From the IMG/VR virus record IMGVR_UViG_3300044980_000033, positions 1 through 48,588 of that record: a stretch of DNA of 48,588 nt, one strand, 5' to 3'. The translations under genes and the position numbers were made by a program. This document shows positions 3,600-16,086 of this stretch, piece after piece. Positions within the stretch are counted from its first letter, which is position 1, and each line of letters starts with the position of its first letter. The DNA comes from a virus. Below the pieces are notes generated by a model. That model ran no database searches. It worked only from the letters and a program-made list of their open reading frames with translations, and was not told where the DNA came from.

Positions 3600-4559
3600 T
3601 TACGGCCCTTCCGAAGCGAATGTGTTGATCCAGGTATCGGCCCCGGCTGAGAATCTCGAAATCGCCAGGAACTTCAAAGCCTGCTGATCGAAGTCCCGGT
3701 CATAGTCGCCGTAGATCGGTTGGCGCTCGTAGAACATCAGACGATGCTCGTCCTTGTTTCCGGTCAGGAACCAGTTTGAGGGAGATGTGAAGTAGTGGCC
3801 CACATCGTAAGTCAGGCCGGCCGAAACCAGCGCATTGACTTCGTTGTCGGAGGTGTAGGGCTTGCCGCTCGACCCGAGAAGCTCGATTGCGATGTACTCA
3901 AGCTCCGGCGGAATCCTCAAGTGCTTGGGCTTGGTCGCAACCGGAATGCCACGGGCATTCGGCATGCGCTGGAAGGTCATGGTCGCGTATTGAAGAGCGG
4001 TGAAGCTCAGATCGGCGTCCGTTGCGGGGCGGTTCGGGTAAGTGCCCGCCGCGGTAGAGAAGTTGCCTACGCCCGGCGCGATATTGGTCGCCGTTACACC
4101 ACCGAGGAGGGGATGCTGGTTGTTGAATAGTGACACACCGTCATCGGTGATGGTTCCGGTCGAGGAGAAGCCGAGATTGAAGACGTTACCGGCTGTCTGC
4201 TCCTGCGCGAAGATGTGGCCCTGCACAAGACCTTTGGGTGACTGCTCCATCATGCCGGTCTGGTCGTCCTGCATCAGCTCGTAGCTCATGCGCACGCCGA
4301 GGCCGAATGTCTGATGGATGTAACGCCGTGTGCCGCCCTGGATCAGGTAATCGTAGTAGACCGGCTGGCCTTCGTTCTTCGGCAGCGCGGGGCCGGTTCC
4401 GGCATAGTGAACGGCGTCCTCGTAAGCCTTCTTGGAGGGCAGAACATTCATCATCCCGCGAAACTCCACACGCCGCTGCTGGAGATCGAGAAACTCGATG
4501 AAGTTGTGTGCTACGTCAACTGACATAGCTTGATAGAACTGATTCCTCACCATGGTCAC
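3600..4559 (-). CDS. Major capsid protein (Mu GpT-like, HK97 fold)
   Basis: At 319 aa it has the usual length for this class. Features typical of GpT-like coat proteins are FNNQHPLLGG near the middle, PKHLRIPPELEYIAIELL (the 'P-x2-L-x-V/I-P-P-x-L' segment), the DNEVNALVSAGLTYDVGHYF and NWFLTGNKDEHRLMFYERQPI stretches, and a C-terminal FDQQALKFLAISRFSAGADTW. It forms the icosahedral shell. GTG 4559 is the most upstream start and has GGGAGGG about 8 nt before it; ATG 4553 is an alternative. Scaffold-like genes lie just upstream in the operon, as expected. Confidence 0.85.
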   Translation of the reverse strand: MTMVRNQFYQAMSVDVAHNFIEFLDLQQRRVEFRGMMNVLPSKKAYEDAVHYAGTGPALPKNEGQPVYYDYLIQGGTRRYIHQTFGLGVRMSYELMQDDQTGMMEQSPKGLVQGHIFAQEQTAGNVFNLGFSSTGTITDDGVSLFNNQHPLLGGVTATNIAPGVGNFSTAAGTYPNRPATDADLSFTALQYATMTFQRMPNARGIPVATKPKHLRIPPELEYIAIELLGSSGKPYTSDNEVNALVSAGLTYDVGHYFTSPSNWFLTGNKDEHRLMFYERQPIYGDYDRDFDQQALKFLAISRFSAGADTWINTFASEGP

Positions 4560-7027: not shown

Positions 7028-7104
7028 TAGCTGTACCAGTTCTCCATGCCAAAATCATCGGCGGTGATCGAAACCCATTCCCATGAAAAAATCAGGCGTC
7101 TCAC
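7027..7104 (-). CDS. 25-aa micro-ORF linking the GNAT and 110-aa genes
   Basis: GTG at 7104 overlaps the TGA of the GNAT gene (GTGA), and its TAA overlaps the next ATG (TAATG). The peptide is rich in aromatic and acidic residues (SWEWVSITADDFGMENWYS at its C-terminal end). Perfect abutment on both sides argues that it is translated, at least to carry ribosomes to the next gene. No SD is visible, so confidence is limited. Confidence 0.4.
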   Translation of the reverse strand: MRRLIFSWEWVSITADDFGMENWYS

Positions 7105-7547
7105 GATCTGCACCAGAGAATTGCGTCCACGTTGTCCTCGTAGAAATCGGGCACGTATTGGACCGGGATGAATCCGGCCTTGTTAAGCAGCGCGCCACTC
7201 CGAATGTTATCGAGCATTGTGTGAGCCTGGATGACGCGACAATTATTGCGCTCCAGTTCGTCGAGACGCCAATTAAGAAGCATCCTCCCCAGCCCCCTTC
7301 CCTGATATTCAGGAAGTACGGCAGTTGAGTAAAGATAACCGACACGGAAGGCATAACGCGCCACGCAATAACCAACTAACTTTTCGCCGTCATAGATTCC
7401 GCCGCGAATTTGGCTGCGCTTAAGAATGTCCCCGATTTCTTCCGTAGGGAAACGGCTGGCGTCGTTGAAACAAGTCTTTTCGATGGCATCGACCTGACCT
7501 ACTAAAGCGTCGTCAATGGCGAAAAATTCGCTTACCTTCCAAATCAT
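7101..7547 (-). CDS. GNAT-family N-acetyltransferase
   Basis: 148 aa, a complete single GNAT domain. Motif A, YSTAVLPEYQGRGLGRMLL, carries the acetyl-CoA pyrophosphate-binding Q-x-x-G-x-G/A signature. The following segment has a typical motif B (MLDNIRSGALLNKAGFIPV). It transfers an acetyl group from acetyl-CoA to an amine; the target is unknown. It is coupled to the portal gene by ATGA. In a head operon it could modify a virion protein or a host protein late in infection; both are guesses. Confidence 0.85.
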   Translation of the reverse strand: MIWKVSEFFAIDDALVGQVDAIEKTCFNDASRFPTEEIGDILKRSQIRGGIYDGEKLVGYCVARYAFRVGYLYSTAVLPEYQGRGLGRMLLNWRLDELERNNCRVIQAHTMLDNIRSGALLNKAGFIPVQYVPDFYEDNVDAILWCRS

Positions 7548-9520
7548 TGAATCGGCGCTCCCTCAGCCGGTGCGGGTTGCGGCGGTGCCTGTGGTGGTTG
7601 ACTACCAGCTTGAGCCGGTAACTGCGGCTGGCCTGGCGGCTGCATCGGCAACGCGCCCGACCTCAACATCTGCGCGATCTCCTGCGCCGCCGCATGCTTC
7701 GCCATCTCGTGCGCGGCCATCGACCTTGCCTCTGCCGATGCGGGAGTGGGGTTGATGATCGATGGATCGTTGATGCCGAAATCCTTGTCGATCTTCGCCA
7801 TCAAAGCATTGGCGGCGATGAAAGTCTGCCACAGATAATCTTTCTGGTCGGGAGACAACATAGGACTTTGAAGAGCCTGCATGATCTGCGCCTGCTGCTG
7901 CCAGTGCGCCCGGTGATTGTTCAATAGAAGCATTTCATTCTGCTTCTCGACTTCTTTATTGATCGAGCCGGTTGCAGCGCGAATCGGCAAAGCAAGTCTG
8001 CGCTGCTTCACGTTTTCCAAAGCCTCTTTCAGGTACTTCGACTGCTCGCCGAAGATTCTCAGGTCTTTTGGGCTGATACCGAACTCGGCGTCGTACATCG
8101 TCTTTAACCTGCCCAAACAATAGTGCGCGTGCTTGAACCCGGTCTTCGACAAATTCGACCGTGTATCGCCCTCCTGCATGACGGCGTAAGTTCCCATGGC
8201 CGAGTATGCATTTTTCTTGTTGACCGTCCCCGATCCCTGACCGGCGGATGAAGGGCCGATGCCCGCGCGGTCCTGCGCCAGTTGCAGGGTCATCATTTCA
8301 TCCTTGATGGTCTCGTTCGCCGTGCGGCCCATGGGGATGACTTCTAAAGACCCATCTTCTCCGGGCCAGATGGCGTTCGGATAAACCGAGAATTGCGAAT
8401 CGACCTGCGTCCCGCCGCCGATCCTGTAGATGTTGCAGTTGGCGAGCGTCGAAGCGTCGCCGCGGCGGTTGTGAATCGCCGAGACTTCCTCCTGGTAGTC
8501 CTTGAGCATCTCGCAAAAGCCGAACCCGTAAGAGCGTTCGCCGTCATAACCCAAAACCGCTTTGACGTAGGGAATCGAGTTATCCGGGAGCCAGTTGAAA
8601 ACAGCCTTCAATGTCTTTCTGGTTTGCAAATGATACGTCCAGATCAGTTGGAATCTCTTGCCCTGGACAACATAAGGGAACCAGCACTCGTACAGATCCC
8701 ACTCGGCAGCGGCATTGCCTCCTGCGGCTCCCGACTGGATTCCCTGATCGCGCTGCATGTCCTGCTCGGTCTTTTCCGGTCCCTGCCTGTCGGGAGTCTT
8801 CAATAATTCGCTAATCACCGCGCGGTCGTAGGTCTTGTCGGCCTTCATCATCTCAAGATCGAAACGCGAGACTCTGGCTCTCTGCGCGGTGAACGGGCTT
8901 CTTTCGATCTCTGAAACGGTGAGAGGAATCAAAAAATCCTCGAACAATAGCGGATAGGCAACCGGGCCATCGTGTCTTGTAAAGTTCTCGAACACAATCC
9001 CGCCATCGGACTGACTGGCGGCGACTTTCTCGACCGTCCTTTCCGGCATCAGCTTGATCGCACCCATGCCGTAGCGGATGGCAGTCGATCCCCATGCCTG
9101 GTACTTGGGAATCAGATTCAAATAGCCGGGTTCCATTCCCGTAAAGCCAAGCCAATCCTGAAGAGCCTGCCTCTGCTCTTCGGCGTGCTCTTCGCGCTTC
9201 CAGTTGCCGATGACTCCGACTTCCCACAGGGGGTCCATTCCGAAAATCGACATCAGCCACTTGGCGAGCATCTGGTCGGTGAACGCTCCCACCAGCTGGA
9301 CAACCACATTCGAGGCATTCTGCCAGGGGAACGATTTGTATTTTTCTCTCGGCTGTCCGGTGTAGACACGTCTCCACTGCGTGATCTTCGACTCTCTCAA
9401 ATCGCGAAGCTGCTGGACGAGACCTTCAAGCCGCTCGGAGACGTACTTCTCGATGTCTTTGTAGGTAAGGGAGTCCTTCGACCACTGCTTCTGTACCGGA
9501 AGTTCAACGGGAAGCGGCAT
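7544..9520 (-). CDS. Portal protein
   Basis: A 658-aa protein directly downstream of the large terminase (1-nt stop/start overlap). The N-terminal part has the portal-like pattern of helices followed by a tryptophan-rich wing (FPWQNASNVVVQLVGAFTDQ; FGMDPLWEVGVIG). The middle has VLGYDGERSYGFGFCEMLKD and EVSAIHNRRGDASTLANCN, and the C-terminus is a long helical region ending in a Pro/Gln/Ala-rich tail (barrel and tail). It forms the dodecameric DNA channel at one vertex. Assignment rests on position, size and these patterns. Confidence 0.8.
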   Translation of the reverse strand: MPLPVELPVQKQWSKDSLTYKDIEKYVSERLEGLVQQLRDLRESKITQWRRVYTGQPREKYKSFPWQNASNVVVQLVGAFTDQMLAKWLMSIFGMDPLWEVGVIGNWKREEHAEEQRQALQDWLGFTGMEPGYLNLIPKYQAWGSTAIRYGMGAIKLMPERTVEKVAASQSDGGIVFENFTRHDGPVAYPLLFEDFLIPLTVSEIERSPFTAQRARVSRFDLEMMKADKTYDRAVISELLKTPDRQGPEKTEQDMQRDQGIQSGAAGGNAAAEWDLYECWFPYVVQGKRFQLIWTYHLQTRKTLKAVFNWLPDNSIPYVKAVLGYDGERSYGFGFCEMLKDYQEEVSAIHNRRGDASTLANCNIYRIGGGTQVDSQFSVYPNAIWPGEDGSLEVIPMGRTANETIKDEMMTLQLAQDRAGIGPSSAGQGSGTVNKKNAYSAMGTYAVMQEGDTRSNLSKTGFKHAHYCLGRLKTMYDAEFGISPKDLRIFGEQSKYLKEALENVKQRRLALPIRAATGSINKEVEKQNEMLLLNNHRAHWQQQAQIMQALQSPMLSPDQKDYLWQTFIAANALMAKIDKDFGINDPSIINPTPASAEARSMAAHEMAKHAAAQEIAQMLRSGALPMQPPGQPQLPAQAGSQPPQAPPQPAPAEGAPIQ

Positions 9521-11403
9521 CAGTACCCCGCGACGGAGATGTTCTGCATCGTCTGCGAACGGCGTTTCAATTCCTCGCGCACAAAGTCTCTTGCGCCGAG
9601 CCTCGAACCCTGCCCGAAAGTCTGTGGGCTGTAGCCGATCACGTCAAGTATATCCATGAATCGGCCATTGGGATACTGTTCATATTCCTCCATGAACTGC
9701 TCGCAGCCGACTCTCGGTACCCAGAACAGACCGTTTTCATAGACTGGCTCCATGCCGATGATCCTGTCATGCTTGGCCCCGGCGGTTCTAGGAGTGTTCA
9801 ATTCTCTGATGCCGAACGACGCCTCCGGCCCCATCGATTTCAGCTTGTCGCGGAACAGATAGTACCATCCCTGCTGACCTGCAACCTTCGATTCAAGGTA
9901 GACGTGGTGGACCTTCCACTTGACGGCCAATCCCCTCGCTCCCGGTCTGATCCCTACCAGTTTGTCGATCATCTCGTCGAAACTTCCGGACGATGCCCAC
10001 GATTCGAGCAAATAGATTCTCCTCGGAGCCGGCGGGCGATTGTAATAGCCCAAAACCACAATCGCATTTCTCGACCGTCCTCCCAGGCCCTCTGAGTGCG
10101 TCGGGTCGAGAATCGCTACGCGGTCTAAATCTCCGGCCCTGATGTCTTCCAGAACTTCCCCGGCCTGTGTCTCATGCCTCATCGCCATCTTGAGTCTTAC
10201 CGGAATCGCCCCCGCAGCTTCGGCCCGGTCCTGCTCGATCTCCCTCGACGTAAGATTGGGATTCATGCCGAGTTGCTGAGAGTTCGCAACCGTGATCTTC
10301 TGACCTTCCCATGGAACGCGCTGGTAATGACGTAACCACGACCGCTTGAACCTGACCGCCTCCGGGCTTATGGGATTGTTTTCGTACTGGCAGGAGAAGT
10401 GGTACGATCCCCAAATATTTCTCAGGCCGGAGATTTTTTCGAGCGAAAACTCTTCCGGGAAAATCGGCTGACCTGACGGATGAAGCGAGCAGCAGCCGCC
10501 AGTTACGGCATGAGTAATGAATCTCAGGATCGATCCGTATTCCCTGCGCAGGAACGAACCCACGTCGCGCTCCGACCAGCGATTTCCGATAAACAACTGA
10601 TCGGCGAGTTTGTCCGCATCCTCTGGATCGGAGTCGAACGCTCCGGGAAGTTTCCTTATCCACTCGCAGGTGTCGTTCATTACAATGTCGGACTTGATGG
10701 CCTTTTCCCCCACCGGATCGTCGATCACCTGCCGCTCAAAATGCTGCGACTGTAAAGCGCCTTTGACGCCGATGAAGTTGTACGTCCCTTCGCCCTGGTA
10801 CACGCCATCGACGCGGTTGTGAGTCATCGACTGCGCGTTCCACTTGTCCTTTTTCTTACCCGTGCCCTTCAAATCGAAAGTTGTCTTGGGAATGATTTCG
10901 GAGTAGTAATAGCGGAACTCGGCATTGTTCTGATAGTGAGCCGATATTCTCGCGCCGAACTTGATGGCGTTGTCCCTGATCTCGTTCACGATCAAGGTGC
11001 GGGTCGAGCTGTAATGCGCTCTCCTCATCCACCTGATCCAGGCGTCGCGATACCCGAAGGCGCGCATGTACTCTTCATCCTGATCGTTAAACGGCAGCGC
11101 CCACCACATCGGGGCCGAGACGGTAGCTACCGTCGTTTTGAAATGGTCTCTCGGAATCTCCATGGCGAGCCTGAGCGAATCCTGCTCCAGTTCGCGGCAC
11201 ATATAGCCGTGGAGATTGGGTGAAAGTCTGTCATGCCCCAGGATGACTTTGTTGAAATAAAATAGAGACCCCAACCCATTCAGGCGGATGACGACCCGCT
11301 TGGCTTCGGAGGTCATTGATTCCGCGATAGGCAGGACGCGCCAGCGTTGCGCGGGAGCTTCCGAGATGATCGGCGCGAACTGGTCCTCCAGGGCTTCGAG
11401 CAT
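9520..11403 (-). CDS. terL: Terminase large subunit
   Basis: 627 aa. The ATPase domain has a Walker A motif MEIPRDHFKTT at 81-91 (Lys89, Thr90) and a Walker B RQVIDDP with Asp228/Asp229. The nuclease domain (RNase H fold) shows Asp433 in AILDPTHSEG, Glu504 in VYLESKV and Asp584/Asp587 in FMDILDVIGY. It translocates DNA into the prohead and cuts it. It overlaps the portal start by one base. The preceding gene with the TerS-like character supports the assignment. Confidence 0.95.
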   Translation of the reverse strand: MLEALEDQFAPIISEAPAQRWRVLPIAESMTSEAKRVVIRLNGLGSLFYFNKVILGHDRLSPNLHGYMCRELEQDSLRLAMEIPRDHFKTTVATVSAPMWWALPFNDQDEEYMRAFGYRDAWIRWMRRAHYSSTRTLIVNEIRDNAIKFGARISAHYQNNAEFRYYYSEIIPKTTFDLKGTGKKKDKWNAQSMTHNRVDGVYQGEGTYNFIGVKGALQSQHFERQVIDDPVGEKAIKSDIVMNDTCEWIRKLPGAFDSDPEDADKLADQLFIGNRWSERDVGSFLRREYGSILRFITHAVTGGCCSLHPSGQPIFPEEFSLEKISGLRNIWGSYHFSCQYENNPISPEAVRFKRSWLRHYQRVPWEGQKITVANSQQLGMNPNLTSREIEQDRAEAAGAIPVRLKMAMRHETQAGEVLEDIRAGDLDRVAILDPTHSEGLGGRSRNAIVVLGYYNRPPAPRRIYLLESWASSGSFDEMIDKLVGIRPGARGLAVKWKVHHVYLESKVAGQQGWYYLFRDKLKSMGPEASFGIRELNTPRTAGAKHDRIIGMEPVYENGLFWVPRVGCEQFMEEYEQYPNGRFMDILDVIGYSPQTFGQGSRLGARDFVREELKRRSQTMQNISVAGY

Positions 11404-11654
11404 CAGTTTCTCAGGCGAATGTAGTAACCGGAAGGAGTGTGGGTTATCGAAAGACCTTGAGGAATAATGGCCCCCTCGGCACGCTCGGGAAGAGTAGACA
11501 CGAAATTATCGTAAGCCTCGCGCGTGCCATAGTTATCGCATCCGCACGCTTGATACTGACCTTCATGCCGCGATACATTTACATCGCACCGCAGGCTCAC
11601 GGCGCCTTTTATCGATGCCTGGTGATCGTGGCGACACCTTACGCATTCGCTCAC
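11403..11654 (-). CDS. Cys-rich small protein, 83 aa
   Basis: The N-terminal half has C-V-R-C-R-H-D-H and later C and C-G-C residues in a pattern that could bind zinc (ECVRCRHDH...LRCDVN...YQACGCDNYG). The C-terminal half is a short beta/helix segment. It sits between the small and large terminase candidates, overlapping both (ATGA with the upstream gene and one base with terL). Function unknown; the position suggests packaging. Confidence 0.65.
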   Translation of the reverse strand: MSECVRCRHDHQASIKGAVSLRCDVNVSRHEGQYQACGCDNYGTREAYDNFVSTLPERAEGAIIPQGLSITHTPSGYYIRLRN

Positions 11655-12151
11655 TGAATCGTCTCCTGATGCCGCTTGAGGGCAGTGAGAATCTCCTGCG
11701 CCACAGATTCGTTTGCCGGTTTCTCCGCGTCGTCGTTATCGCTGCGCATGAATCGCCCGTCCCATTGCGATGCCAGACGCGCCGCGGCGAGCTTGTCCTT
11801 ATCGTCTCCCGCTACCAGAATGTCGATGACCACTCCAATCGAAAGCGCCATGGCATGTTGAATCTTCTTGCGCAGTTCCGGCGTCTGAGGTAACTTGAGC
11901 ATCTGCTCGCGCCATTCCTGACGCTGCTCTTCGAGCGCAACCTTATAGAGATCGGTAGACCGATACCCGCAAACCGTAGTCGTCGAGACGGCATCGGCCT
12001 TGGGATCGTCGATCCGCCCGAGCGCCAGACGCACCATATGCGCAGGCATTCCCTTCCAGTCCAGAGCCGCGAGATAGCGAATGCGCCTCTCGGTCGCCGG
12101 GGTCATCGATTCGCCGGAGTCGGTTGTTTCGAGATGAGGCCCGGAGTTCAT
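11651..12151 (-). CDS. Candidate terminase small subunit, 166 aa
   Basis: Almost entirely helical and charged. The N-terminal region has a possible helix-turn-helix (RYLAALDWKGMPAHMVRLAL, then VCGYRSTDLYKVALEEQRQE), followed by helices (LRKKIQHAMALSIGVVIDIL; LAAARLASQWDGRFM). A DNA-binding N-terminus plus a helical oligomer core and position two genes before terL fit a small terminase, which recognises the packaging site. No decisive motif is visible. Confidence 0.5.
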   Translation of the reverse strand: MNSGPHLETTDSGESMTPATERRIRYLAALDWKGMPAHMVRLALGRIDDPKADAVSTTTVCGYRSTDLYKVALEEQRQEWREQMLKLPQTPELRKKIQHAMALSIGVVIDILVAGDDKDKLAAARLASQWDGRFMRSDNDDAEKPANESVAQEILTALKRHQETIQ

Positions 12152-12411
12152 CAGTGTTTCACCAGTTTAACGCCATTCGGAGGAACGATGAGACTCGGCT
12201 GTGACTGAGCAGGAAGAACGCAACCCAAAATCGAAATCTTCATGTTGTCCGGCGTGCATCCGTGAAACAGCGTGGCTCTACACTCGGAACAGGTAAAGGG
12301 GCGCGGATGCTCGACGGCGATCAGAGAAACAGTGGGCGAGTTGAAGACCTTGGGCGCGGGAATGTCGGGAGCCTCGATAATTTTGGTGCAGGCTTCACAG
12401 ATGACTTTCAC
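12151..12411 (-). CDS. Zinc-ribbon-like protein, 86 aa
   Basis: Two cysteine pairs, CEAC near the N-terminus and FTCSEC in the middle, are about 35 residues apart, as in zinc ribbons. A further Cys follows at LFHGC. The C-terminal third is Pro/Val-rich. It overlaps both the chaperonin-like gene (ATGA) and the next gene, so the three are translationally coupled. Confidence 0.65.
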   Translation of the reverse strand: MKVICEACTKIIEAPDIPAPKVFNSPTVSLIAVEHPRPFTCSECRATLFHGCTPDNMKISILGCVLPAQSQPSLIVPPNGVKLVKH

Positions 12412-13247
12412 CTGACCCTCGCTTTCAGGATACTCAGAACTTCCTTTTCGCCCATCATCACGTAGGAGTCAACCTTGGAGACGGTCAGTTCGTGGCCGGC
12501 GAACTTCGAGTGGATGACGCGATCACCCAACTTCAACAGCCGGCACTCCGGCCCCACGCTTACCACGACACCCGTGATGGGCTTCGATTCTGCGACCTCG
12601 GGAATGATGATCCCGGCACGCCATCCCGAACCGCGGCAAGATTCGCACGGTTTCCGGCCGCATGACCACTTCTGCTCGCGATCGTAACCCAGGACGATGC
12701 AGTGCGGGCACGCAATCTGGTTGCCTTCAATGTCAATCTTGACTTTCTGCGATCCGGCGCAATTGAGGCAGGGGGTATCCTCATCGTAGCCGCGGCCGTG
12801 GCACTGCTTGCAGGCGTCCTCCAGTTCGAGAACGTCCTTCCTCACCAGAATCCTGTCCCCGAGCATGGCCTGGTAGTAGTCGGAGTGAGAGCCGTACCAG
12901 ACCAGGGCCTCGCGGGGCCGGGAAAGCTCGTTCACACGGGCATCTTTGGCCACGACCTCAATCCCATTAACCCTGCGCAATTCAAGCCCGGTCACGTCCG
13001 GCTCATCGAACATCTGCGCCTTTACAAGCTCGCGCGGCCCTTCCTCAATCGAGAACTTGCGCGGGACCAGGCGCTCACGCGGCGTAATCTCGATCCCATC
13101 CGAGACCCTGACCACATCGGCCTCAATCGGATCGCCCTCGGCAGACGGCATCCTGCTCCGGTTGATGGCCTCGAAATCCGCACCGTTCTCGTACTGGCCC
13201 TGCTCGGTTGCCGTGTTGCCTAAATCGCTGCGCTTCAACTCGGCCAT
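12408..13247 (-). CDS. GroES-like co-chaperonin with an inserted DnaJ-type zinc finger
   Basis: 279 aa. Residues 1-128 are an unrecognised, partly charged extension. The GroES fold starts at GDRILVRKD (130-138; compare DRVIVKRKE of E. coli GroES) and resumes at GIII (212-215; the mobile-loop GGIVL position), ITGVVVSVGP (224-233), LGDRVIHSKFAGHELTV (240-256) and YVMMGEKEVLSIL (262-274). Between the two halves, at 146-208, are four Cys pairs: CKQCHGRG, CLNC, CPHC and CESCRGSG. Their spacing (146/149, 160/163, 180/183, 201/204) is close to the zinc finger of E. coli DnaJ. GroES caps GroEL; phages such as T4 (gp31) use their own GroES for capsid folding. The location ahead of the terminase and capsid genes fits that role. 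The inserted finger is unusual. Confidence 0.85.
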   Translation of the reverse strand: MAELKRSDLGNTATEQGQYENGADFEAINRSRMPSAEGDPIEADVVRVSDGIEITPRERLVPRKFSIEEGPRELVKAQMFDEPDVTGLELRRVNGIEVVAKDARVNELSRPREALVWYGSHSDYYQAMLGDRILVRKDVLELEDACKQCHGRGYDEDTPCLNCAGSQKVKIDIEGNQIACPHCIVLGYDREQKWSCGRKPCESCRGSGWRAGIIIPEVAESKPITGVVVSVGPECRLLKLGDRVIHSKFAGHELTVSKVDSYVMMGEKEVLSILKARVR

Positions 13248-13423
13248 TTATTCGCATCTCCGTTTTCCATTGCATACAAAATCAGGTGGAAAAACCCGAG
13301 TATCCTTTGCTTTAAAGTTGGCTCTTTGATGAAAGCATATATCCATTTTGCATGTTTACATGCTGGATTGCATTCACCAAAAGTGAAGTGAAAAGCATCT
13401 CGTATGGCCGTCACTATCTTCAT
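13235..13423 (-). CDS. Small late protein, 62 aa
   Basis: Hydrophobic/aromatic protein (DAFHFTFGECNPACKHAKWIY; GFFHLILYAMENGD) with C-x3-C-x2-H, possibly a metal site. It overlaps the start of the GroES-like gene by 13 nt and an AAGG precedes its ATG. No family recognised; cotranscription with the chaperonin gene is likely. Confidence 0.55.
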   Translation of the reverse strand: MKIVTAIRDAFHFTFGECNPACKHAKWIYAFIKEPTLKQRILGFFHLILYAMENGDANKWPS

Positions 13424-13443
13424 GCTTGCCTTTCATGGGGGAG

Positions 13444-13480
13444 GCGGCGCGGGGTGAGCACATGGCCTGAGCCGCGCCGC
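13444..13480 (-). other. Strong GC-rich hairpin upstream of the GroES operon
   Basis: The arms GCGGCGCGG (13444-13452) and CCGCGCCGC (13472-13480) are perfect complements of 9 bp with a 19-nt loop. There is no following T-run, so it is not a canonical terminator. Lying between the stop of the 166-aa gene and the 62-aa gene, it could modulate read-through, RNA stability or translation of the chaperonin unit. Confidence 0.6.
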
Positions 13481-13488
13481 GGGGGAAC

Positions 13489-13989
13489 TTAGGTCGTCTG
13501 CACAAACGTGATGCCTGTCGGAACCACAGGTGGTACGCTCGGCGTGATGGTCGCGCTCAACGACATGCCGGTGCTCGCGCTCGTCGCGGTATATCCAACG
13601 CTGAACGGCGAAGCCGGATTGTCCACGAAAGTCGAAGGCAGGGGAATCGTAACGATTAGCCCGGTCGAATCGACAGCCGGCGTTACGGTGGGGTCACTGG
13701 ACGTGACGGCAAATCCCGAGTCTGCCGGAAAAACTGCGCCCGCAGGCGCGAGCGTTCCGGTATAGACGAGCGTGTTTCCTGCTACAGGTGGAAGCATGGT
13801 GATCTCCTGAAAAACAATTCCGGTTGGGGTTGGTTCCTCGCCAAGATGCCTGAGAATGCGGCGGAGGAGGTGCCGGTTCTCACGTTCCAAATACAGAATC
13901 TCATGCAATAGATGCGGATTATTCTCCGCCCTGCGCAACTCAATCTCCGATTCGTATTTCACCACTTCACTCCTAAACTCGCCAGCCAC
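13489..13989 (-). CDS. Coiled-coil plus Ig-like domain protein, 166 aa
   Basis: The first 55 residues form a charged helix (SEIELRRAENNPHLLHEILY; ENRHLLRRILRHLG). The rest is beta-rich, with the Pro/Thr/Val spacing of an immunoglobulin-like domain (GNTLVYTGTLAPAGAVFPAD; TGLIVTIPLPSTFVDN; GMSLSATITPSVPP). Ig-like domains often decorate phage virions. Its place at the head of the late unit is consistent, but the exact role is unknown. Confidence 0.6.
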   Translation of the reverse strand: MAGEFRSEVVKYESEIELRRAENNPHLLHEILYLERENRHLLRRILRHLGEEPTPTGIVFQEITMLPPVAGNTLVYTGTLAPAGAVFPADSGFAVTSSDPTVTPAVDSTGLIVTIPLPSTFVDNPASPFSVGYTATSASTGMSLSATITPSVPPVVPTGITFVQTT

Positions 13990-14839: not shown

Positions 14840-14851
14840 CATGATATCATG
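14840..14851. promoter_or_regulatory. 12-bp perfect palindrome CATGATATCATG in the divergent spacer
   Basis: The palindrome overlaps the first possible ATG (14849) of the DUF559 gene in the only divergent intergenic region between the early and late units. It could be an operator for a dimeric regulator. I see no clear sigma-70 promoter in this spacer (14775-14848). Confidence 0.4.
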
Positions 14852-15328
14852 TCGGCAATGGCTGCGAGCAAGATCGAGCGATGGGCAAATCAGATGCGCC
14901 GCAAGATGACGCCGGCTGAGTCGAGGCTCCACAATGCGCTACTGGCTGCGTTGTTTCCATTCAATGCTCAGGTCAAAGCGCAAGAGGTTGTCGGCTACTA
15001 CATCGCGGATTTCATGATCTATCCGGCGCGCGTGGTCGTTGAGTGTGATGGTGCGCACCACAAGAGCAAGCACGGTGAGGCTTACGACAGGCGGCGCGAT
15101 ACCACAATGCGCCGGGCTGGCATTCGCACGATCCGCTTCGAGAATTGGCGTATCTACAAACAGCTTCCACAGGTAATCGCTGAGATTCTAGCGTTTTGCG
15201 GCGACTTCCACCCTAAGCCACTCACAACGCCGTTGGGCGCTCCGATAGTGCGCAAATTGCCTACTGTATACGGCAGGCGCTTACGCAGCCGGCGCTGGTC
15301 TGAATCACAATTTCGCAGAATTCCCTAG
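14849..15328 (+). CDS. DUF559 endonuclease-like protein
   Basis: 159 aa. The family pattern is clear: MRRKMTPAESRLHNALLAAL at the N-terminus, VVGYYIADFMIYPARVVVEC followed by DGAHH with the PD-(D/E)XK-like acidic residues, and RRAGIRTIRFENWRI near the end. DUF559 is related to Vsr-type nucleases and is common in mobile DNA. The last 35 residues are a basic extension. A second ATG at 14858 could be the true start because the first overlaps a palindrome. First gene of the early unit. Confidence 0.85.
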   Translation: MSAMAASKIERWANQMRRKMTPAESRLHNALLAALFPFNAQVKAQEVVGYYIADFMIYPARVVVECDGAHHKSKHGEAYDRRRDTTMRRAGIRTIRFENWRIYKQLPQVIAEILAFCGDFHPKPLTTPLGAPIVRKLPTVYGRRLRSRRWSESQFRRIP

Positions 15329-15354: not shown

Positions 15355-15417
15355 ATGAGAGTATGGGGTTGTGGCCGTTGTAGCGGCTGCACATCTCAGG
15401 CTTTCGAGGAGCCATCA

Positions 15418-16086
15418 ATGACAACCCCATCAGAGCATGTTAAGGCATTCGGATACCTGCGCGTCAGCGGCCTCTCGCAGCGCGACGGTGACGGCTTGCC
15501 GCGGCAGAGAGAAGCTATCGAGTCGTTTGCCGAAAAGAACGGCTATGAGATAGCTGAATGGTTCTCCGATGAAGGCGTGAGCGGCACGATGGAGATGGCC
15601 GACAGGCCGGCGCTGGGCCAGGTATTCGCGGCGCTCGAAGAGAACGGCGTCAGGATCGTGGTCTGCGAGAAGCTGGACCGGCTGGCTCGCGATCTGATGA
15701 TCCAGGAAGCCATCATTGCCGACATGCAGAGACGCGGATTCACGCTGCTCTCGACCATGGAGCCTGACCTCTGTTCCCAAGATCCCTCGCGCGTCCTGAT
15801 CAGACAGATATTCGGCGCCTTAGCCCAATACGACCGCGCCATGATCACGCTCAAGCTGAAAGCCGCCAAAGACCGGATGCGCGCCAAGGGCCTCAAATGC
15901 GATGGACCTAAGCCCTATGGACAACTCCCTGGCGAGATGGAGCAGCTCACGCTCATGCGCGAACTGCGCGCAGAAGGCAAGACGCTCGACCAGACACGCG
16001 CTGAGATGACCGCCCGGAACATGATGGCGCGCTCAGGCAAACCCTGGTCCCTCGGCTCCCTCGCCCGCGTGGCTCGCCGTGCGTAG
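15418..16086 (+). CDS. Small serine recombinase (resolvase/invertase type)
   Basis: 222 aa from ATG 15418, which follows GAGGAG; the longer frame is less likely. The catalytic motif is FGYLRVSGLSQ, with nucleophile Ser17 and Arg15. The DEGVSGT, VVCEKLDRLARD and ALAQYDRAMITLKLKAAKDR segments are standard for the catalytic domain and the long E helix. Residues 165-222 form a short DNA-binding end. It lacks the large C-terminal domains of phage serine integrases, so it may integrate, resolve multimers or invert DNA. Confidence 0.9.
   Translation: MTTPSEHVKAFGYLRVSGLSQRDGDGLPRQREAIESFAEKNGYEIAEWFSDEGVSGTMEMADRPALGQVFAALEENGVRIVVCEKLDRLARDLMIQEAIIADMQRRGFTLLSTMEPDLCSQDPSRVLIRQIFGALAQYDRAMITLKLKAAKDRMRAKGLKCDGPKPYGQLPGEMEQLTLMRELRAEGKTLDQTRAEMTARNMMARSGKPWSLGSLARVARRA

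Follow-up and report, generated by a model that had tools for sequence, protein, structure and literature searches.

Background

GroES caps GroEL through its mobile loop. Many phages encode a GroES only and rely on the GroEL of their host (PMC7185714); the closest described examples are T4 gp31 and RB49 CocO (PHROG 3188), which have a GroES fold and a mobile loop carrying a hydrophobic triplet and are encoded without a GroEL. In T4 gp31, roof loops are missing and the mobile loop is longer (PMC6318259); this loop counts 22 residues and holds no Cys module. Regarding DnaJ-type zinc fingers, Zn centre I of DnaJ was reported to serve substrate binding, and the finger displays thiol-disulphide activity (PMC4428491). 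ZnJ2 contains four CXXCXGXG motifs and no J-domain, and it stops aggregation without helping DnaK (PMC5818400). Such J-domain-less fingers (chloroplast BSD2 and ZnJ2) work beside the chaperonin pathway, i.e. in Rubisco assembly, as separate small proteins that are not fused to a co-chaperonin. Finally, human Cpn10 carrying foreign peptides in its mobile loop can still be heptameric (PMC5118791).

Here, we analysed a gene shared by uncultured phages, whose product (hereafter the chimera) is a GroES/Cpn10 protein with a DnaJ-type Cys-rich module inside its mobile loop. The GroES fold and the hydrophobic triplet are shared with gp31 and CocO, and the absence of a roof hairpin with gp31. Unlike gp31, the chimera has about 65 residues with eight Cys in the loop, and it differs from phage co-chaperonins by an additional N-terminal region of 110 residues. 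It resembles the DnaJ central domain (PF00684) by four C-x2-C pairs in register, and differs from it in pair 3, in the gaps between pairs, and in having neither a J-domain nor the DnaJ peptide-binding domain. Bacteroidota GroES (e.g. L032), the closest plain GroES (44 % over 64 residues), and Cpn20, the best PDB match to the chimera family profile, also have a short roof region, but their mobile loop carries no insert. Human Cpn10 display scaffolds likewise present a foreign sequence in the mobile loop of a Cpn10 ring; however, they are engineered, with short peptides replacing the loop, whereas the chimera is natural, carries a whole domain and keeps its GroEL motif.

Results

The window and the chimera gene

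The window, i.e. the whole stretch of DNA analysed, is a virus record from IMG/VR with a length of 48,588 bases. It carries genes for a portal, a large terminase, a major head protein, a serine integrase and an exonuclease VIII, and therefore originates from a tailed, probably temperate phage; no tRNA gene was found in its 48,588 bases. The ORF described by a previous sequence-only reading, with GroES-like segments flanking four C-x2-C pairs, was recovered with the same coordinates and residues, and its content was borne out by the Cpn10 profile, the alignment and the structural model. It is a real gene, with an ATG start downstream of a GGAG-like site and a 3' end overlapping the next gene by 4 bp. 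The features discussed below are as follows, all on the minus strand.

12408..13247 (-): whole chimera gene, 279 aa, i.e. N-terminal region, split GroES and inserted DnaJ-type finger; has homologues, dN/dS well under 1
12912..13247 (-): N-terminal region, residues 1-112; no Pfam match; conserved among lineage-1 members; lineage 2 has a shorter, unrelated stretch in its place
12819..12911 (-): lead-in and first GroES strand (GDRILVRKD), residues 113-143; from alignment to plain phage GroES and model
12618..12818 (-): inserted DnaJ-type Cys-rich module inside the mobile loop, residues 144-210
12801..12812 (-): C-x2-C pair 1 (CKQCHGRG)
12759..12770 (-): C-x2-C pair 2 (CLNCAG)
12699..12710 (-): C-x2-C pair 3 (CPHCIVLG)
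12636..12647 (-): C-x2-C pair 4 (CESCRGSG)
12600..12614 (-): GIIIP, mobile-loop motif predicted to bind GroEL; all members have G-[IV]-[IV]-[IV]-P here
12411..12617 (-): remainder of the GroES barrel without roof hairpin, residues 211-279; from Cpn10 profile, alignment and model
12151..12411 (-): 86-aa protein with two C-x2-C pairs; begins within the chimera stop (4-bp overlap) and adjoins the chimera in close relatives too
11651..12151 (-): 166-aa protein, probable small terminase subunit, by position
9520..11403 (-): large terminase subunit (phrog_38, 1.3e-45)
7544..9520 (-): portal protein (phrog_1216, 9.1e-08)
3600..4559 (-): major head protein (phrog_371, 1.9e-10)

The chimera gene adjoined the terminase module wherever the flanking DNA was long enough, in both lineages defined below. 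In L010/L012, it lies on the opposite strand and is convergent to the large terminase gene (TerL).

A GroES/Cpn10 protein without roof hairpin

The Pfam Cpn10 profile matched residues 211-273 (E=1.7e-11, 44.4 bits for a cut-off of 21.1) and the PHROG 'co-chaperonin GroES' matched the window protein at 6e-11. The Cpn10 profile also matched every member of the family scanned, with E values of 1e-9 to 1e-12, and a profile built from five relatives retrieved Cpn20 and Cpn10 chains from the PDB, down to 4.8e-15. In an alignment with 30 plain phage GroES proteins gathered from IMG/VR, residues 113-143 aligned with the first GroES strand (GDRILVRKD, residues 130-138) and residues 211-279 with the remainder, the G-I-I-I-P stretch falling at the GroEL-binding triplet. 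The same alignment revealed the absence of a roof hairpin from the window protein; as gp31 also lacks one, this hairpin is not essential for the GroES family. Among 48 plain phage GroES sequences examined, none had a Cys cluster in its mobile loop. Two other odd phage GroES variants were encountered (L076 1971-2471 and L077 1905-2462), one bearing a C-x2-C in a C-terminal extension and the other of 186 aa with long extensions.

The GroES fold anticipated by the sequence-only reading was found in the predicted structure of residues 113-279 (pLDDT 77). This model superposed on Mycobacterium tuberculosis Cpn10 with a Z of 11.5 (72 residues at 1.7 Å), a single superposition spanning model residues 10-164 and taking in the first GroES strand, and on T4 gp31 in complex with GroEL with a Z of 10.2. 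The top PDB matches were all co-chaperonins and the top matches among viral models were mostly annotated GroES; ADH-type barrels were also matched, with Z up to 7.7. The input alignment of the model included plain GroES rows, so that the model is not independent of it; the Cpn10 profile hits are independent. The full-length structure predicted with four relatives had a pLDDT of 33. By profile and predicted structure, the Cpn10 identity is unambiguous, and by all features tested except the roof hairpin the chimera is a member of the GroES/Cpn10 family.

An inserted DnaJ-type finger within the mobile loop

About 65 residues are inserted into the mobile loop, in its N-terminal arm, between roughly T19 and G23 (E. 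coli GroES numbering) and a few residues upstream of GIIIP (GGIVL-like). The GroES fold is thus split at the mobile loop, as previously noted, but the insertion is located within the loop itself rather than just before it. The four C-x2-C pairs occupy residues 146/149, 160/163, 180/183 and 201/204, and these eight Cys do not vary among the 13 complete members that were aligned, whereas C196 does. CxGxG turns are present in pairs 1 and 4 and CxG in pair 2, as in DnaJ, while pair 3 reads CxxCxVLG in most of lineage 1. The spacing, which the sequence-only reading had considered close to that of DnaJ, is only loosely kept: the inter-pair gaps are 10/16/17 in the window protein versus 13/18/10 in E. 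coli DnaJ, the gap between pairs 2 and 3 varies from 4 to 21 residues, and that between pairs 3 and 4 is fixed at 17 in the five lineage-1 members measured, versus 10 in DnaJ.

Of the two models suggested for a profile search, Cpn10 passed its cut-off, whereas the Pfam DnaJ finger (PF00684) was sub-threshold on the window protein (E=0.0077). It was detected at 1.4e-5 in L010, over profile positions 1-64 of 65, and at 1.2e-4 in lineage 2, together with BSD2_CRD at 6e-4; no member reached the curated cut-off (best score 25.7 bits versus 32.7). When five fingers of the family were compared with ten from DnaJ using hhalign, the probability was 89.9 and the four C-x2-C pairs were all in register. 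The profile-profile score (39.7) was reached by none of 200 shuffles preserving the Cys columns (maximum 22.6), and 100 full shuffles gave a maximum of 12.3. As no Cys-preserving shuffle attained the real score, the insert is, at the profile level, DnaJ-like beyond its cysteines, which upholds the earlier assignment to a DnaJ-type finger. We infer that it binds zinc.

In the model, the block pLDDT of the insert was 52-81. The matches listed in fold searches with the 113-279 model were Cpn10 and ADH-type barrels, without any finger among them; these searches were uninformative for the insert, the GroES barrel having filled the lists. Two other assignments were discarded, namely anti-TRAP, to which the finger shows a weak and partial similarity covering only half of it, and an ADH-type GroES-like domain with a structural zinc lobe, given its weaker profile and different insert site.

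Distribution, lineages and selection

A DNA pattern for the junction (C-x2-C-x-G-x-G-x3-G-[hydrophobic]3-P) was run over 2.9 million viral contigs and retrieved 17 IMG/VR loci, all of which (17/17) encode the same fusion. Scans with the chimera protein and the terminase detected four further non-redundant members. The total amounts to 19 records (17 pattern loci, the window and L007), i.e. about 11-12 distinct proteins distributed in two lineages. All have the two parts in the same order, and neither separate genes nor an assembly artefact, both of which would have spoken against the sequence-only reading, were seen in these records. Lineage 1 comprises the window, L001, L007, L010, L019, L122, L127, L130 and L134, plus the L129/L131/L136/L137 group. 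Lineage 2 (L123=L125, L135) differs from it at the N-terminus and at the C-terminal end, and its finger is more canonical. In the core, the two lineages are 28-38 % identical, and the TerL and portal proteins of lineage 2 are about 30 % identical to those of the window. Since two lineages this far apart in TerL and portal share the fusion, it is therefore old in its clade.

No unfused Cpn10 was found in the fusion records, with one Cpn10 per record searched; a plain Cpn10 occurred in a single TerL relative, the distant L014 record (TerL 25 % identical). Between the window and L001, dN was 0.25 and dS 1.76, indicating purifying selection, with identities of 86 % for the GroES part, 60 % for the finger and 66 % for the N-terminal region.

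Outside this set, tblastn against 50,697 deposited phage records yielded GroES pieces only and no fused relative, plasmid records contained plain GroES only, and an initial scan of genome contigs gave no relative. A pattern scan of 84,980 species returned nine matches, all by chance; its pattern requires the lineage-1 Trp and thus covers the lineage-1 type only. Among the papers searched, which did not include the survey of virioplankton chaperonins by Marine et al., none dealt with a GroES with a zinc insert in its mobile loop. Within the limits of these searches, the fused architecture is thus undescribed, in agreement with what had been proposed from the sequence.

GroEL and J-domain

GroEL was absent from the seven records searched, which may be fragments (14 control genomes were positive). 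In these same, possibly fragmentary records and in the chimera protein itself, the J-domain (PF00226, HPD motif) was absent as well. The proposal of fused Hsp10 and Hsp40 functions was overstated and is rejected because no J-domain, the Hsp40 part that works DnaK, is present: the finger alone is common to DnaJ, and the chimera is not an Hsp40.

Discussion

A candidate lid carrying putative substrate-binding fingers

We favour, with a probability of roughly 60 %, the interpretation that the chimera is a phage-encoded GroES/Cpn10 co-chaperonin with a DnaJ-type double zinc finger in its mobile loop, which caps host GroEL and whose seven fingers hold virion clients at the chamber mouth. It would form a seven-membered ring displacing or supplementing host GroES, the GIIIP motif would let it cap host GroEL, and capping would bring the seven fingers next to the GroEL contacts at the mouth of the chamber. 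By analogy with the ZnJ2/BSD2 fingers, those of the chimera may act as ATP-independent holders that catch non-native virion subunits, which they would hand to the chamber or receive from it. The most likely clients would be the head or portal protein, the major head protein (3600..4559) being a likely candidate. As the roof loops are missing, the chamber may be more open, as in T4 gp31, and such openness would suit large clients. Specificity for clients or virions may be contributed by the 110 N-terminal residues. Coat or fibre proteins may be routed to GroEL, as supposed in the sequence-only reading; the gene itself lies beside the terminase genes. The 65-residue insert in the binding loop could weaken or abolish GroEL binding.

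The finger may instead be an adaptor and not a holdase, tethering the GroES ring to one of several possible phage partners (terminase, portal, small Cys-rich neighbour or nucleic acid), so that folding would take place where packaging or head assembly occurs. The chimera gene always sits beside the terminase module, even with TerL only 30 % identical, and this points to an adaptor, as do the 4-bp overlap with the next small Cys-rich gene, the Phage_zn_bind_8 neighbours of several relatives and the weak resemblance to anti-TRAP; however, late-gene clustering explains the location by itself and, with the convergent orientation seen in L010/L012, the gene is not in the TerL operon there, so that we consider an adaptor unlikely. 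The Cys module could also constitute a redox or zinc switch, the loop being GroEL-competent when reduced and zinc-bound, and oxidation releasing the zinc and turning the lid off or into a holdase. The eight invariant Cys directly against the GroEL-binding motif and the thiol-disulphide activity of the DnaJ finger (PMC4428491) are consistent with such a switch, which we nevertheless judge improbable, as the conserved CxGxG turns match DnaJ, a structural finger, and no sign of an oxidant-linked context was observed.

The barrel itself might have lost GroEL binding and become a virion or scaffold part, in line with the head-gene neighbourhood, the long extra N-terminal region and the occurrence of GroES-like barrels outside chaperonins, e.g. 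in alcohol dehydrogenases (weak ADH_N match and the fold similarity mentioned above). We give little credence to this view: the GroEL-binding motif is the most constrained part next to the Cys, Cpn10 outscores ADH_N by many orders of magnitude, and the zinc lobe of ADH sits elsewhere in the barrel. As for an artefact, i.e. Cys pairs arising by chance, a wrongly joined contig or two genes, nothing was found in its favour, and the recurrence of the same fusion in 19 records from many metagenomes, with all Cys invariant and the gene under purifying selection, makes it negligible; mis-assembly is ruled out by the 18 other records.

A host GroEL-capping co-chaperonin of this kind would demonstrate that, in nature, an entire chaperone domain can be accommodated in the GroEL-binding loop with the loop remaining under selection, and would add an architecture to phage chaperone biology, in which the described lids are small. 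It would also provide a natural precedent for Cpn10 display scaffolds, and the same barrel with and without its finger could be compared on one GroEL as a test of client choice for the chamber. We further propose, tentatively and at well below even odds, a distinct class of co-chaperonins in which the lid is itself a substrate-binding chaperone, seven DnaJ-type fingers surrounding the mouth of GroEL and catching phage clients and passing them into or out of the lidded chamber. If true, two steps performed in cells by separate machines would be joined in one protein.

Other observations on the gene neighbourhood

L010 differs from the other members in this region (9959-13733), where the orientation of the chimera gene and its small neighbours is flipped with respect to the terminase gene. 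The major head protein of the window is 71-85 % identical to its counterparts in L010, L019 and L134 and is by far the most conserved of the genes compared; in the same comparison, the terminase is only 51-57 % identical and the chimera about 40 %. Small proteins of the Phage_zn_bind_8 family (PF24623) adjoin the chimera in several relatives (e.g. L019 11122-11496 and L010 12400-12780), at the place where the window has the 86-aa Cys-pair protein alone. A GNAT-type acetyltransferase (phrog_1249, 7.7e-15) is encoded between the portal and head genes of the window (7101-7547), and its homologue in L001 comes after the portal gene. L001 also contains a 308-aa ORF (695-1621) with a long run of near-identical ATAGxxGN-type repeats. 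Finally, a 159-aa ORF of the window (14849-15328), which by eye has the look of a DUF559/Vsr-like endonuclease, adjoins the serine integrase gene (15355-16086).
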